Assembly (NCBI GenBank): GCA_021160245.1
Contig: JAGHCW010000087.1
Span: 1-8,399 of the forward strand
Length of the DNA stretch: 8,399 nucleotides
Direction of reading: 5' to 3'
Origin: a bacterium
GTDB taxonomy: Bacteria; B130-G9
This document shows, piece by piece, positions 588 through 8,399 of this stretch. The position numbers were made by a program, and so were the translations under genes. The notes beneath the pieces were generated by a model that worked only from the letters and a program-made list of their open reading frames with translations, searched no databases and was not told where the DNA came from. Numbering within the stretch: the stretch's first letter is position 1; every line of letters starts with the position of its first letter.

Positions 588-989
588 TCAAAGCGAATGT
601 CTCTTGGCCAGCCATAGGACGTGCTCTCGAGACATAGCTTCTTCAGCATCAAGCACGAAGTGCGAAAGCTCGGTCTCATTCTTGATGTGGGATGCCTTAG
701 CATCCATCAGACCCAATTCGTGACTTGCCATCGCGTATGATCGAGCAAGTCCGTCAAAGCGATTTATGCTCTGCCAAGCCATGAATGTTGCCGTAAACGC
801 TGCGAATACAGGGGCGAGAGACAATCCTAAATCCATCCAGCATGCGGCGACGATTCCGGATATAATCGTGAACAATTGTGCGAGGACGACCAGAATGAAC
901 CACATTAATGAAGCACGTTTGTTTGCTTCTGCCTTCGCAGCATACCAAGTCCTTTGATCCGAGATCCGATCACAAACATACATTTCCAT
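588..989 (-). CDS. Small two-TM SLATT/DUF4231-like membrane protein
   Basis: 133 residues from ATG at 987-989. An AGGAAG sequence a few bases upstream of that ATG supports it over the longer frame from GTG at 1041-1043; a second ATG lies two codons in. The layout fits the SLATT (SMODS- and SLOG-associating two-TM effector) / DUF4231 families: an amphipathic lead-in with R-I-x-D-Q-x-x-W-Y-x-x-K-A-x-x-N-K-R (8-25), a hydrophobic helix at ~27-50, a short turn, a second helix at ~53-72, then a soluble helical tail ending E-E-A-M-S-R-E-H-x-x-W-L (116-127). That last pattern is typical of the family's C-terminus. SLATT proteins are proposed to form membrane pores in nucleotide-signalling defence systems. 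Here no nucleotidyltransferase, SLOG or TIR gene is adjacent and the gene stands alone between convergent and divergent neighbours. Related proteins can carry a second, N-terminal SLATT-like unit that is absent here, so it may be a short family member or a remnant. Family assignment is from pattern recognition only. Confidence 0.6.
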   Translation of the reverse strand: MEMYVCDRISDQRTWYAAKAEANKRASLMWFILVVLAQLFTIISGIVAACWMDLGLSLAPVFAAFTATFMAWQSINRFDGLARSYAMASHELGLMDAKASHIKNETELSHFVLDAEEAMSREHVLWLAKRHSL

Positions 990-1050
990 TCCACTTCCTG
1001 GCCGGCCAAATGTAAGCCATACAGCTAACAACCAAACCCTCACCCAGCAA

Positions 1051-2852: not shown

Positions 2853-3524
2853 TTATGTCAGAATCTCTTGAGTAGCGTTCTCGGACGGCGCATCAACCGG
2901 CGAGTTGTCCTCTGAGGACTTGTCTTGGCCGGAGAAGCATATTCGCTCGATGACCGTATAAATTGCCCCTTTAGGGCGCAATTGGCTGCGCATCAGAAAT
3001 ATGTGGTCAGCGTTTATCGGCTCGATCTTCGCCTCTGGCAAGTTCTTGATTGTGGCTCCGAGTTCTTGGGTGGATTTTAAGTATTTCACCCGGCAGAGCG
3101 TGATATGTGGTCTGAAGGGTCTCGATTCTGGTTTGAATCCTATTGATTCCATTGAAGCTCGCACATCCTTCGCAAGACTCGCGAGATGATCTGCGCCATC
3201 GCTCACACCAAGCCAGATGATCCTTGGTGATGCAGGCCCCGGGAAGACGCCAACTCCGCCAAAAGTCAGCTTGAATGGCGCGTGCCTCGCCCCAATGGCC
3301 GCGAGGTTTTTTGAGATCGATCCGAGCCTTCCTCTCGTGCATTCGCCGAGGAATTTCAGTGTTATGTGCATGTTGTTCGGGCTGCACCAGCTCATCTTGC
3401 CCTTGACGCCCTTTAGAGGCTCCGCGGCGAGGGCGATCTGCTCTCTGATTGGATGTGGGATCTCAATTGAGATGAAAGCCCTGATTCCGGCGCCATTTGA
3501 TCGCTTGATGAGTCTTGAAACCAT
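2853..3524 (-). CDS. thpR: RNA 2',3'-cyclic phosphodiesterase (2H / LigT family)
   Basis: 223 residues from ATG at 3522-3524, with an AGGGG SD seven bases upstream. The conserved N-terminus (R-A-F-I-S-I-E-I-P) begins at residue 15, so a 14-residue extension precedes it. Two H-x-T-x motifs define the 2H phosphoesterase active site: H53-I-T-L (in H-I-T-L-K-F-L-G-E) and H140-I-T-L. Enzymes of this group open 2',3'-cyclic phosphates on RNA ends to 2'-phosphates and were first described as tRNA 2'-5' ligases; they are cytosolic and monomeric. The core ends near residue 195 (Y-T-V-I-E-R-I-C-F), followed by a polar, acidic tail of ~25 residues rich in Ser, Asp and Glu, longer than in most relatives. 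It converges on glnA with a 133-bp spacer in which I found no clear bidirectional terminator. No operon partner is seen. Confidence 0.93.
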   Translation of the reverse strand: MVSRLIKRSNGAGIRAFISIEIPHPIREQIALAAEPLKGVKGKMSWCSPNNMHITLKFLGECTRGRLGSISKNLAAIGARHAPFKLTFGGVGVFPGPASPRIIWLGVSDGADHLASLAKDVRASMESIGFKPESRPFRPHITLCRVKYLKSTQELGATIKNLPEAKIEPINADHIFLMRSQLRPKGAIYTVIERICFSGQDKSSEDNSPVDAPSENATQEILT

Positions 3525-3984
3525 GAATAGCCCCTGTAATTTATTTGCCTACCCTCCGGCAATCACGCAGAAGGCCGGTCTATGCAGAATACTAAAAGAC
3601 CAGAGCGCCTGCTGTCAAGGTTTGAGGCACAAGTCTCCATTCGACGGAAGCGGGAGAAAAGGGGAAAAGGAAAAGAGGAGATAAGGGATATTGATCCAAA
3701 CTGTGTTAAGCCGTCGCGTCCAGAAGATCGCGGATATGCAAAATGCGACCGGACCGCAAGCGAAAAGCCCCCCTTCGAATTACGGCTGTACATTGACTGT
3801 CCGTCGTGTATGTATCAGAAGGTGACAGAATCTGGCATTGTGTCACAGGGTTGCGAAAAGGCAATATGTATCCAGATTGCTGCAATATAGAGAGCAGCAA
3901 TTAAGGCAACATGGGTATTGCAAGGGAAAATATCATAAAAACACAAAAAAAGTACTTGACATAGTATGAATAATGAACCACTGT
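3525..3984. other. Intergenic stretch without a convincing gene
   Basis: About 460 bases between the divergent thpR start and the structured RNA. A plus-strand frame (3582-3890) and a minus-strand frame (3563-3793) are open but show no family motif, no good ribosome site and low-complexity basic composition, so I do not call them genes. The most marked feature is a run of 30 purines without a break (3652-3681). The 3' part (3925-3955) is A-rich, and a perfect TTGACA (3956-3961) lies 24 bases before the RNA but has no matching -10 box at 16-18 bp. Confidence 0.6.
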
Positions 3985-4218
3985 CTCTTCGGAAGATGTT
4001 TTTAATTTGTTTAACCTGAATGCATAGAGGCGGAATTAGAAGGAGCGGAGGCTAGACCGGAGAGGAAGTAGGAGCCTGCTAAGTTAGTTGCTTCCTACAT
4101 CTTCTTAGACCGGACCTATTATGAATCGGGGAAAGCCGTCAGTACCCCTTTGGGGAAACGATAGTAATCAAAGCGGACCCGGTGACAGTCTGGTAGGACC
4201 GGTCTCTTGTCCGAAGAG
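3985..4218 (+). ncRNA. Putative structured RNA of about 234 nt, family not recognised
   Basis: No coding frame spans this stretch, and it holds nested complementarity. Closing helix: CTCTTCGGA (3985-3993) with TCCGAAGAG (4210-4218), 9 bp, perfect. Arm A: 4061-4072 with 4094-4105, 12 positions with one A-A mismatch and one wobble, extendable by two pairs. Arm B: 4107-4121 with 4191-4205, 15 positions with a single A-A mismatch and two wobbles. Arms A and B are separated by one base, so they could stack. Inside arm B, CCCC (4145-4148) can pair with GGGG at 4128-4131 or 4152-4155. A ~67-nt segment between the closing helix and arm A has no strong pairing. It lies upstream of and in line with the secreted-protein genes, so it could be a long leader element or an independent RNA. 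I compared it by eye with RNase P, tmRNA, 6S, SRP RNA and common riboswitch cores and saw no match. The strand is assumed from the neighbours. Confidence 0.55.
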
Positions 4219-4262
4219 CAAGCCAATGTTCCACAATGAATAGGAGCTAGTGGACTATCTAA

Positions 4263-4353: not shown

Positions 4354-4857
4354 ATGGCCATTCGGTATCCGTTGGGCACAAAGAGACCGCGTAGGCGCGG
4401 ACTCCGTTCGCTCATAAAGGGCCCTGCCTTTCAGGTTATTGCAGCCTTCCTGGTGATGATATTGCTGCTTTTGTGTCTCGCTTTTTGCGATGTCGCTCTC
4501 GCAGAACGCGCGATTATATGTCAGCTTAGAAAGCCCACCCTAAATGAGCATGCCGGAAATCTCGCTCTGCAGGGCCTTTCATGCACCAAACACGCCATTC
4601 CACAAAATCCACCGGGCGAACGCGGTGTTGTCAAGTGGTCATCCAGATGCTTGATGAGCTCAATAGCCTCTCTATTGGGCGGCACTACTCCAGGGTCGGG
4701 CGATCTATGTCTTGGACAGCTTATGCTGAACAGCCAGGTTCAGGGCGGTTCTGCCCGGTGGTGGATTATTGGAGATGGGGCAATCAGCAGTGCAATCGAA
4801 TGGGAAAGTCAAATATGGCGCTATCGAATATCGTCTCTCTTAAGAGACGCAGCATGA
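4354..4857 (+). CDS. Small predicted secreted protein, no recognised family
   Basis: 167 residues from ATG 4354, chosen because GGGAG (4340-4344) sits nine bases upstream and because the N-terminus then reads as a signal peptide. The longer frame from GTG 4276 adds 26 polar residues and has no SD. The n-region is strongly basic (K-R-P-R-R-R-G), followed by a hydrophobic core around residues 29-46 and a possible A-x-A-like cleavage site at V-A-L-A just before E-R. The mature part of ~115 residues holds four Cys, two adjacent Trp and no motif I know. Codon use and composition do not strongly separate this frame from the alternative at 4581-4865, so the downstream half may be unreliable or frameshifted. 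It precedes the other secreted-protein genes in the same direction, which suggests, without proof, that it belongs with them. Confidence 0.45.
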   Translation: MAIRYPLGTKRPRRRGLRSLIKGPAFQVIAAFLVMILLLLCLAFCDVALAERAIICQLRKPTLNEHAGNLALQGLSCTKHAIPQNPPGERGVVKWSSRCLMSSIASLLGGTTPGSGDLCLGQLMLNSQVQGGSARWWIIGDGAISSAIEWESQIWRYRISSLLRDAA

Positions 4858-4865
4858 ACCTTTAG

Positions 4866-4875
4866 AGGAGGTGAT
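4866..4875 (+). promoter_or_regulatory. Near-complete Shine-Dalgarno sequence AGGAGGTGAT
   Basis: Ten bases complementary to the 3' end of 16S rRNA, nine bases after the stop of the small secreted-protein gene. The nearest downstream start in an open frame is GTG 4885, 13 bases from the GGAGG core, longer than usual. It may be a real ribosome site with poor spacing or part of the structured leader that follows. Confidence 0.4.
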
Positions 4876-4884
4876 TCTATAGAG

Positions 4885-4992
4885 GTGAGCAGATTCAGTT
4901 TAGTAAAGGGTACCCCCGAGGCGAGGGATTGGAAACCACAAAGCCCCGAGGGTCACCCGGACGCGATCCCGCAATCTAGCGGGCGCGACTAG
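4885..4992 (+). CDS. Possible 35-residue leader-type small ORF
   Basis: GTG 4885 to TAG 4990-4992. The peptide starts M-S-R-F, like the 317-aa protein that follows, then is polar and Pro-rich with no membrane segment. Support is limited to the strong SD upstream (spacing 13) and its place in front of the tandem hairpins. The same bases contain GC-rich inverted repeats, notably CCCGC (4968-4972) with GCGGG (4979-4983), flanked by GCG/CGC, so the region may instead be untranslated leader RNA. Confidence 0.2.
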   Translation: MSRFSLVKGTPEARDWKPQSPEGHPDAIPQSSGRD

Positions 4993-4993
4993 T

Positions 4994-5069
4994 TATTAGA
5001 CTCTACATTATAGAGTCTAGTATTGCTCAAATTGGCTAAAAAAGTCAAGAAATCGGCCAATTTGGGCAA
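4994..5069 (+). promoter_or_regulatory. Two abutting stem-loops in the leader of the 317-aa secreted-protein gene
   Basis: Stem-loop 1: 4994-5005 pairs with 5011-5022 (12 bp with one wobble, 5-nt loop CATTA); its core is the perfect repeat TAGACTCTA/TAGAGTCTA. Stem-loop 2 begins at the next base: 5023-5036 pairs with 5056-5069 (14 bp with one wobble, 19-nt A-rich loop). It ends nine bases before the GGGAGG ribosome site (5079-5084). Neither is followed by a T tract, so simple intrinsic termination is unlikely. Translational control, transcript stabilisation after processing, or a DNA operator (stem-loop 1 is a near-perfect palindrome) are possible. Confidence 0.6.
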
Positions 5070-5094
5070 AGCTTCAAAGGGAGGTTTTTGAGGC

Positions 5095-6048
5095 ATGTCT
5101 AGATTTTTGACAGTTTTTGTATGCATCACCGCTCTGGTTCTGATGAGCGGCGCTGCGCTGGCTACTTGGGACTCCGGGACCGAACCGTACACGGGCACGG
5201 GAGAAGACAAGGCCGCATGGCGTTGGTTTGTCGATCCGGGTGACAAGAGCGGTAGAGCTGAAGGGTACGGCAGTTCCAGTTTGGGCGAGCGTGGCCTTAA
5301 CTACTCCTACGCCTGGGGGGCCGGCTTCTATGATACGTGGTTCTACTACGACTGGAGCGGCCCACCCTTCTGGGTAATGGGCGACAACGGTAGCCACACC
5401 GGTGCCGATGGTACTGGCGAGGGATACTACAACCTTCAAATAGACGCAGACATTGAGATGTTCGCCAACGAATGGATGGAGAACAGCTTGTTGTACTTCC
5501 ATAGGCTGACCACGGTGGAGAGCATGAACGCATACTGGGACTACTGGATCGAGTCCAACAACGGGATGTGGGTTTTCCTCACAGTGGATGATGACTGTTG
5601 CTGGGGTGGTCTCGACTCAGGCTATCTACCTTATCTGGACATGGTCAACAGGCGACCCGCTCCCTATGACTGGGACGACACGAGTGGCAAACCAGGCGCG
5701 CGTGGATATGAAACCGAGACCACTTGCCCAAACATGGGGAGTCGCTATTATGTTGACAACACCGCCAAGGGCGGTTCCGCCGCCGATGTGGTGCTTCCGA
5801 TCGACTTCTACATGAAGGCGAACGGTGAGGGATCAGCAGCCGCCGGCACCTATGTCTTGGGCGATTACTCTGCTGAAGGCAACAGCGGCACGTTGATGGG
5901 GATCACATGGTATCCAGACGAGACTGGCGTATTGCGTTATCCTGGCAAGAGGGGCACGACCTTCAAGGCAAACCTTTTACCACACAAATACCAACCAGAC
6001 GGCCGTTATATCATGGACCCGATAGTGGAGCTAGCTCCGTACCTATAA
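5095..6048 (+). CDS. Secreted aromatic- and glycine-rich protein, 317 aa, subunit-like
   Basis: ATG 5095 has GGGAGG ten bases upstream. Residues 1-23 form a Sec signal peptide (S-R-F, hydrophobic core, then G-A-A-L-A before T-W), without a lipobox. The mature protein is unusually rich in Trp, Tyr, Gly, Asp and Asn, with W-F-Y-Y-D-W and Y-W-D-Y-W clusters. It has an acidic D-D-D-C-C-W segment with vicinal Cys168-Cys169 and a third Cys at 211. The C-terminal ~100 residues, including K-Y-Q-P-D-G-R-Y at 298-305 and a final alternating hydrophobic strand, match the end of the protein encoded at 6154-6825, so the two share a domain. I do not recognise the family. The final strand loosely recalls the G-x-Y-x-D-x-V ending of spore-coat-U/Csu-type pilins, which would suit a surface subunit, but that is inference. 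A structured leader lies upstream and a terminator-like hairpin downstream. Confidence 0.85.
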   Translation: MSRFLTVFVCITALVLMSGAALATWDSGTEPYTGTGEDKAAWRWFVDPGDKSGRAEGYGSSSLGERGLNYSYAWGAGFYDTWFYYDWSGPPFWVMGDNGSHTGADGTGEGYYNLQIDADIEMFANEWMENSLLYFHRLTTVESMNAYWDYWIESNNGMWVFLTVDDDCCWGGLDSGYLPYLDMVNRRPAPYDWDDTSGKPGARGYETETTCPNMGSRYYVDNTAKGGSAADVVLPIDFYMKANGEGSAAAGTYVLGDYSAEGNSGTLMGITWYPDETGVLRYPGKRGTTFKANLLPHKYQPDGRYIMDPIVELAPYL

Positions 6049-6825: not shown

Positions 6826-6844
6826 AGTTAGAGGGGAGCAGTCT

Positions 6845-8399
6845 GTGAAAGACCATCAAATGACTACTATATTCTCACATGTCGGGTTGGTGCGGCAGCG
6901 CGCGACAGGCCTATCCAGGCCAGGGCTGTTGTGGGCCTTGATTCCGATTGCCATGTTTGTACTCGGTGGCTCACAGGCAAGCGCTCAATACGGAATATCT
7001 CCTCAGATTGTGCGAAAGTCGGCCGCGCCGGGCAGCGTGGTGACTTATTCGATCACTTGCAGCAATGGCACAACCGAGACGGCAGCCGTCAAGGCCAAGA
7101 TACGGTACGTTGGGACGAACGAGAGCGGCATGCCGGTGCCGTCGAATGAAGCTCAGAGACGTCCGTGCGTCGATTGGATGACTCTCGACCCCGATGTCTT
7201 TGCTCTTGGGCCCGGCGAAGCGAAGCAGCTTCAATGCACGGTCAACATCCCGTCCGAGGGGGTTGTGGGTGGCTATTACGCGTATATTGGTGTTCTCTTT
7301 CGACCACCCATGCCTGAGACTGTGAAAAAGGGGGCAAATATCTTGATGCAATATCGCGTCAATTGCATTGTCATGCTCACTGTCACTGGCGATTCGCTCA
7401 GAACGGGGGTTGATGTTGCAGGCTTAGACCTCTGGCTTGCTGACGTTAAAAACGATAAGGGAGGCTTTAGCGGGGAGTCTAGAGCCTGGAAGGCACGGGT
7501 AAATCTGATCAACACAGGAAACGTGCATCTGTCCTCTGGGGTTAGTGCTTCGATATTCGAGGAAGCGGGGAAGTTGGTCGATTCGGTTGGGTGCGAGCCG
7601 CGGGGCGGATTTGTCCTGCCAGGGACCCAAAGGTCATTTGAGGCAACCGGTAGCAAAGATCTTCCGGATGGGGTGTACGTTTGCTCAATGAAAGTGGGAA
7701 GCGGCGAGGGCAGCGGAGCCGTTCGGTCTGTCTCATTCGCGGTTCTGCGCGGCAAAGTCATGAAAGGCGAGCCTAGCGCGGCTATTAGAGCCGTCCTGGA
7801 TGCGACTGTGCCGGGCTTTGCGCCGGCTACTCGCACAATCGAGGAGAATCTGCCCCCCAAAGGTAAAAGAACGAAGATCGTCGAGCTACAAAATATTACT
7901 GGGCAGGAGATTGAAGTTGAGGGCAGAGTACTGGGCGTTACGCAGAGAGTTGACGGCTCGCTTGAGTATCAGGAGTTGTCAAAGAATGTCGGATTCATCC
8001 CAGAAAAACGCATGATAAAGCTCAAACCAAAATCGCTAAAGATCGCTCCGGGTAGGAAAGGCAAGTTCAAGGTCCGCCTCAAGATGCCCAAGAAGGCTGA
8101 AGGGGAGTTCTGTGGGGCAATAGTGTTCTCAAAAAAGGGCACCTCATTGGTTTACTCGGAGTATCTTCTGGCGCCTGTGTCAACGCGCGTATTCCTCACC
8201 GCCAAAGGCACCGAGAAGCGAGGCGTGAAGATCACGAAGTTCGAGGCGACGAAGAAGAAGGACGGAACTTGTGACCTGAAGGTCTGGGTGAAGAACGAGG
8301 GCAATTGCCGTGTTGGGATTGCCGGGTCGATCGAGATTGTGGATGCGAAGGGCGAGGCCGTTCCGCCCAAGATAGAGCTTGGGGGCAAGGGCACGATGC
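6845..8399 (+). CDS. Large exported multi-domain beta-sandwich protein, chaperone/scaffold-like (3' end outside window)
   Basis: GTG 6845 is preferred: a GAGGGGAG sequence ends six bases upstream. ATG 6860 is the alternative. The frame stays open to the window end (518 codons). A long signal peptide (Arg-rich to ~25, hydrophobic 28-42, then Q-A-S-A before Q-Y) ends near residue 47. Four units follow. A1 (~48-182) holds S-A-A-P-G-S-V-V-T-Y, W-M-T-L-D-P-D-V-F-A-L-G-P-G-E and G-G-Y-Y-A-Y-I-G-V. B1 (~190-303) holds N-T-G-N-V-H-L and L-P-D-G-V-Y. A2 (~328-455) repeats the A pattern (L-K-I-A-P-G-R-K, then G-E-F-C-G-A-I-V-F). B2 (from ~458) starts like B1 with N-E-G-N-C-R-V and is cut off. The A pattern resembles the N-terminal sandwich of PapD-type pilus chaperones and DUF916-like surface domains in general layout only. 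A periplasmic or surface scaffold, or a chaperone for the two preceding proteins, is inferred; the exact family is not recognised. Confidence 0.85.
   Translation, partial: MKDHQMTTIFSHVGLVRQRATGLSRPGLLWALIPIAMFVLGGSQASAQYGISPQIVRKSAAPGSVVTYSITCSNGTTETAAVKAKIRYVGTNESGMPVPSNEAQRRPCVDWMTLDPDVFALGPGEAKQLQCTVNIPSEGVVGGYYAYIGVLFRPPMPETVKKGANILMQYRVNCIVMLTVTGDSLRTGVDVAGLDLWLADVKNDKGGFSGESRAWKARVNLINTGNVHLSSGVSASIFEEAGKLVDSVGCEPRGGFVLPGTQRSFEATGSKDLPDGVYVCSMKVGSGEGSGAVRSVSFAVLRGKVMKGEPSAAIRAVLDATVPGFAPATRTIEENLPPKGKRTKIVELQNITGQEIEVEGRVLGVTQRVDGSLEYQELSKNVGFIPEKRMIKLKPKSLKIAPGRKGKFKVRLKMPKKAEGEFCGAIVFSKKGTSLVYSEYLLAPVSTRVFLTAKGTEKRGVKITKFEATKKKDGTCDLKVWVKNEGNCRVGIAGSIEIVDAKGEAVPPKIELGGKGTM

Follow-up and report, generated by a model that had tools for sequence, protein, structure and literature searches.

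Does the segment 3985-4218 of this stretch encode a structured RNA, and if so, of what kind? The window (the whole stretch of 8,399 nt that was analysed) lies on contig C82 of a 3.4-Mb genome (G000). Its phylum is sampled by four genomes of one family; two of the three relatives' genomes (G001, G002, G003) are labelled Candidatus Coatesbacteria. A sequence-only reading had described the segment as three helices in a region devoid of open frames, and no frame of at least 50 aa crosses it. The structures concerned are the following.

3985-3993 x 4210-4218, + strand: closing helix proposed by the sequence-only reading, perfect 9 bp.
4060-4106, + strand: P2, conserved hairpin with the core AGGARCYYGCTARRTTAGYTGYTTCCT at 4070-4096, four copies in the family.
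4060-4075 x 4090-4106, + strand: helix of P2, 14 ungapped positions with one A.A mismatch, extra pairs above.
4107-4205, + strand: P3, adjoining hairpin, 99 nt in the window versus 14-21 nt in the relatives.
4107-4121 x 4191-4205, + strand: helix of P3, 15 positions with one mismatch.

All three helices are present at the positions originally assigned to them. The inner two are adjacent, as had been described, except that the one-base gap placed between them is not found: the fold leaves no base between them. The minimum free energy of 3985-4218 is -79 kcal/mol (z -2.4), a value equalled by 10 of 1000 dinucleotide shuffles and close to that of the reverse strand (z -2.1). The layout, scored as a perfect 9-bp helix around two adjacent helices of at least 12 positions with one mismatch, recurs when these 234 nt are shuffled (15 of 1500 shuffles) and, by a coarse scan, at six or more other places in the window, the interior of glnA included. 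The inner two helices by themselves fold better (z -3.0 for 4058-4207; z -3.5 for 4060-4205). With z at -2.4 and the same layout in 1% of shuffles, the statement that chance rarely gives such an arrangement was too strong, and the single-sequence statistics are only suggestive of an RNA. They are also what speaks for chance folding of non-coding DNA, with an accidental similarity to G001 and G002. That explanation is very improbable, as the hairpin is restricted to one family, is found in three genera and lies in the same kind of context in each; for P2, it is already largely refuted. The RNA call is credible because homologues exist, not on thermodynamics alone.

These homologues were found with covariance models and a pattern of the P2 core. 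The model R1, built from window positions 4056-4208 alone and searched against 145 genomes, matches, besides its own genome, only G001, at two tandem sites (E 2e-5 and 6e-4). The part common to the window and to these matches is P2. The pattern of the P2 core is found once more in G002 and in none of 141 outsider genomes at up to three mismatches. The four family genomes contain exactly four copies (one in the window, two in tandem in G001, one in G002), whose carriers span three genera; G003 (genome 83% complete) contains none. R3, a model built from the four copies, retrieves them within the phylum at 66-76 bits, with no other credible match there. In 382 outside bacterial genomes, it gives four weak matches (26-32 bits), which is the chance number at E<=0.01 per genome. 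L106, L107 and L108 were inspected and G154 was left out; none of the three is a homologue (L106, AT-rich palindrome lacking the core; L107, 'GAACTCGCTAAATTAGCTGATTC' within a lysA-like coding sequence; L108, no core). The local alignment of 3985-4218 scores above 2000 of 2000 shuffles against the G002 leader and above 1998 of 2000 against that of G001.

Pairing within P2 is retained in the homologues. Over 17 pairs and four copies, 95.6% of cells hold standard pairs, and the proportion falls to 37-62% when the partner is slid by 1-3 columns. Two pairs are altered on both sides; others vary on one side and can still pair (to G-U or back). Since only four sequences are available, covariation by itself is only suggestive: 95 of 500 shuffles match the observed pairing and covariation scores. 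The conserved stem-loop reads UAGGARC-YY-GCUARRUUAG-YUGY-UUCCU, and its helix bases are conserved, not just its loops. This last feature, together with the near symmetry of the core as DNA, would suit an imperfect palindrome recognized by a transcription factor downstream of a promoter rather than an RNA structure. Such a DNA operator is improbable. Among the varying pairs, G-U is found in eight and A-C in one (p=0.04), a bias that points to an RNA read from the + strand, in the direction of the secreted-protein genes; R3 scores the sense strand above the antisense strand by about 39-45 bits. Furthermore, the lower stem varies on both sides, and the presumed transcript would start about 70-100 nt before P2. 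P2 is well supported as a conserved RNA hairpin. It also stands up to the refuting observations named by the sequence-only reading: homologues are present and retain the pairing, and the hairpin is not covered by any protein-coding signal.

Known families do not account for it. The window has no match to Rfam 15 at gathering score, and 3975-4230 has none at E<=10, in line with the sequence-only reading, which recognised no known bacterial RNA core; all matches of the G001 and G002 copies are below the gathering level. The second G001 copy (G001b) weakly resembles the trans-acting small RNA families suhB/mmgR (22 bits, E 0.03, far below gathering). A nucleotide search returned only the locus itself, whether run against the genome of the window, 145 genomes or phages and plasmids, and P2 was not found in IMG/VR. 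Two other candidates were rejected. For a group I intron (RF00028, P3-P4-P6-P7 core), a few core-like words are seen, but no Rfam match is found at E<=10 and P6/P7 have no room between 4183 and 4191. For a protein-coding gene, no open frame with a coding signature is found in the RNA region.

What encloses P2 is less constant. Folded alone, G001b and G002 each give a closing helix (P1), then P2, then P3 (z -3.6 and -5.2, respectively). The 5' strand of the window P3, AGACCGGACC, is aligned to AAACCGACC of G002. P1 of G002 is far above shuffled flanks (p about 0.001); P1 of G001b is marginal (p 0.03-0.29, depending on the flanks). In the window, an alternative to the 9-bp helix is given by the fold of 3978-4240.

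4042-4053, + strand: 5' arm of the alternative closing helix P1, pairs with 4221-4232, placed as in G001b and G002.
4221-4232, + strand: 3' arm of the same helix.

The two helices cross, so that a nested fold can hold only one of them. Neither stands out: the flank test gives p=0.10 for 3985-3993 x 4210-4218 and p 0.16-0.33 for 4042-4053 x 4221-4232 at flanks that include it, which is no better than shuffled. The latter is the better counterpart of P1 because of its position relative to P2: the gap from P1 to P2 is 6 nt in the window, 6 nt in G001b and 5 nt in G002, whereas the 5' arm of the 9-bp helix lies 66 nt before P2. This arm would moreover overlap the start site implied by a conserved TTGACA. 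A direct repeat, TAGACCGGA, flanks P2 (4053-4061 and 4106-4114); the copy at 4053-4061 is a potential competitor of the 5' arm of P3. The initial call of a structured RNA is therefore kept in part: an RNA-like, family-conserved element lying before secreted-protein genes, with no Rfam match, is retained; its single-sequence significance and its 9-bp closing helix are not. A helix layout seen by eye needed homologues, under which P2 survived and the closing helix failed.

Upstream of the hairpin, the following signal is found.

3956-3984, + strand: promoter-like TTGACA (3956-3961, shared by the relatives), 17-nt spacer and weak -10 CACTGT (3979-3984).

In all four copies, the P2 core is preceded by TTGACA at a distance of 103-114 nt. 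The promoter is strong in G001, whose copies have TTGACA-17-TATAGT (11/12 to consensus), and weak elsewhere; a promoter scan of the window did not pick up the poor -10 at 3979-3984. In G001 (L067 6015-6380, minus strand), a 150-nt block carrying promoter and P2 is tandemly duplicated (89% identical, units 192 nt apart). In G001b, P3 is an 8-bp hairpin followed by the U-rich tail TCTTTTCT, resembling an intrinsic terminator.

These features raise the possibility of an independent small RNA gene, with its own promoter, P2 as its body and P3 as its terminator, which would act in trans and lie near secreted-protein genes by inherited order. This is a real possibility, if a somewhat doubtful one. 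The tandem units, duplicated with their 11/12 promoters, suit it, as do the terminator-like end of the second one, the long and variable distance to the genes and the weak suhB/mmgR resemblance. It is weakened by the tail, which is absent in G002 and weak in the window, by the duplicated block, which stops at P2 and excludes P3 (P3 differs between the two copies), and by the location of the RNA, which is upstream of secreted-protein genes and co-oriented with them at 3/3 loci. The gene context in the window is as follows.

2853-3524, - strand: thpR (LigT phosphoesterase), divergently oriented neighbour; its counterparts in the three relatives are 58-66% identical.
4354-4857, + strand: open frame of 167 aa with no Pfam match, unlikely to be a gene and lying within a long untranslated stretch.
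5095-6048, + strand: first credible downstream gene, secreted protein of 317 aa with an N-terminal signal-like segment, no Pfam family and a strong codon score.

No credible coding gene lies between the RNA and the secreted-protein gene in the window, G001 or G002. The frame 4354-4857 has a codon score of -0.07 per codon and a GC3 that is not raised (glnA, thpR, 5095-6048 and 6842-8398: +0.16 to +0.39 per codon). This frame and its counterparts in G001 and G002 lack a coding signature, which suggests a long untranslated leader, roughly 0.5-1.1 kb in length, at every locus; between P3 and the first credible gene lie about 890, 510 and 400 nt at the three loci.

The flagged stretch is probably a regulatory RNA. 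Of the two options first put forward, a new ncRNA or a large cis-regulatory leader, which remain the right pair, the second is preferred: with a probability of about 0.5, the stretch carries a regulatory RNA element, specific to this lineage, located where the long untranslated leader of an operon for secreted proteins begins. It is favoured over an independent small RNA because of its constant relation to secreted-protein genes. Several points count against a leader: only four copies with thin covariation, the length and variability of the distance from P3 to the gene, the duplication of the G001 unit together with its promoter, the closing helix that cannot be demonstrated in the window, and the lack of a copy in G003. 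The nature of the downstream genes also counts against it. Those of G001 and G002 form an orthologous operon of tandem beta-helix secreted proteins; those of the window are unrelated to them, and a protein search found no homologue of the window's secreted-protein genes in the phylum. The window genome does have an orthologue of the G002 beta-helix gene, but it sits elsewhere (C202), with no such hairpin upstream. This orthologue (L071, G000:C202:27081-28757, minus strand; 54% identical over its length) carries a single in-frame TAG, which may reflect a pseudogene, an assembly error or recoding.

The G002 contig carrying glnA-thpR (C224) shares an 87-nt overlap with the contig carrying the RNA (C209), which would set the G002 RNA beside thpR as in the window; the alternative is an assembly repeat. 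The overlap (L068 1-87, L040 1-87) contains a G+C-rich palindrome. No RNA is found ahead of thpR in G003 or G001; contig ends are near.

In the leader, transcription would start between TTGACA and P2. The P2 stem-loop may be read by a protein or another factor, and P3 and the closing helix may serve as a variable scaffold. Binding of the factor would alter either the continuation of the transcript into the secreted-protein genes or its stabilisation for them. The most concrete version is control by premature termination, given the U-rich tail after P3 of G001b; this tail is not conserved. More tentatively, and unlikely in its full form, the element could represent a new regulatory RNA class confined to the phylum, in which an invariant P2 bound by a dedicated factor would govern an operon encoding secreted or surface proteins through a leader of ~1 kb also holding the structured segment 4860-5094.

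Three known systems provide comparisons. Cis-regulatory leader RNAs of the candidate-riboswitch type (PMC2864571) likewise lie between genes, ahead of an operon and in its orientation, and have a hairpin junction with a conserved sequence core in one hairpin. The element described here differs from them by its four known copies in one family with no Rfam match, by a core that is a hairpin with a small internal loop and no recognised ligand pocket, and by the lack of a consistent expression platform. Intrinsic-terminator attenuators are resembled by P3 of G001b followed by TTTCTTTTCT; the missing (G002) or weak (window) tail sets the element apart. Tandemly duplicated bacterial small RNA genes are resembled by the two G001 units with their own promoters; they differ in that the terminator here is not conserved and the location is always before secreted-protein genes.

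P2 offers a first entry point to RNA-level control of secreted proteins in this phylum, which is represented here by only four genomes, and its 27-nt core is a defined query for new genomes.

The strongest structure of the window (z -5.7 to -6.7 on both strands) occupies 4860-5094 and immediately precedes the gene at 5095. It comprises a G+C-rich hairpin (4908-4958) and hairpins at 4959-4990, 4994-5022 (12 bp), 5023-5069 (15 bp) and 5071-5094 (10 bp), the last containing the probable ribosome-binding site of that gene. An additional pairing of GGGAUUG (4924-4930) with CGAUCCC (4964-4970) is possible. This segment matches no Rfam family above chance level; the genomes searched contain no relative of it, and a model of 4902-4992 (R2) found none either. 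Lastly, a stand-alone gene at 588-1043 (- strand) encodes a SLATT_1 two-transmembrane effector (Pfam E 1.6e-28) with no visible partner in the window; the SLATT_1 family is linked to anti-phage defence.
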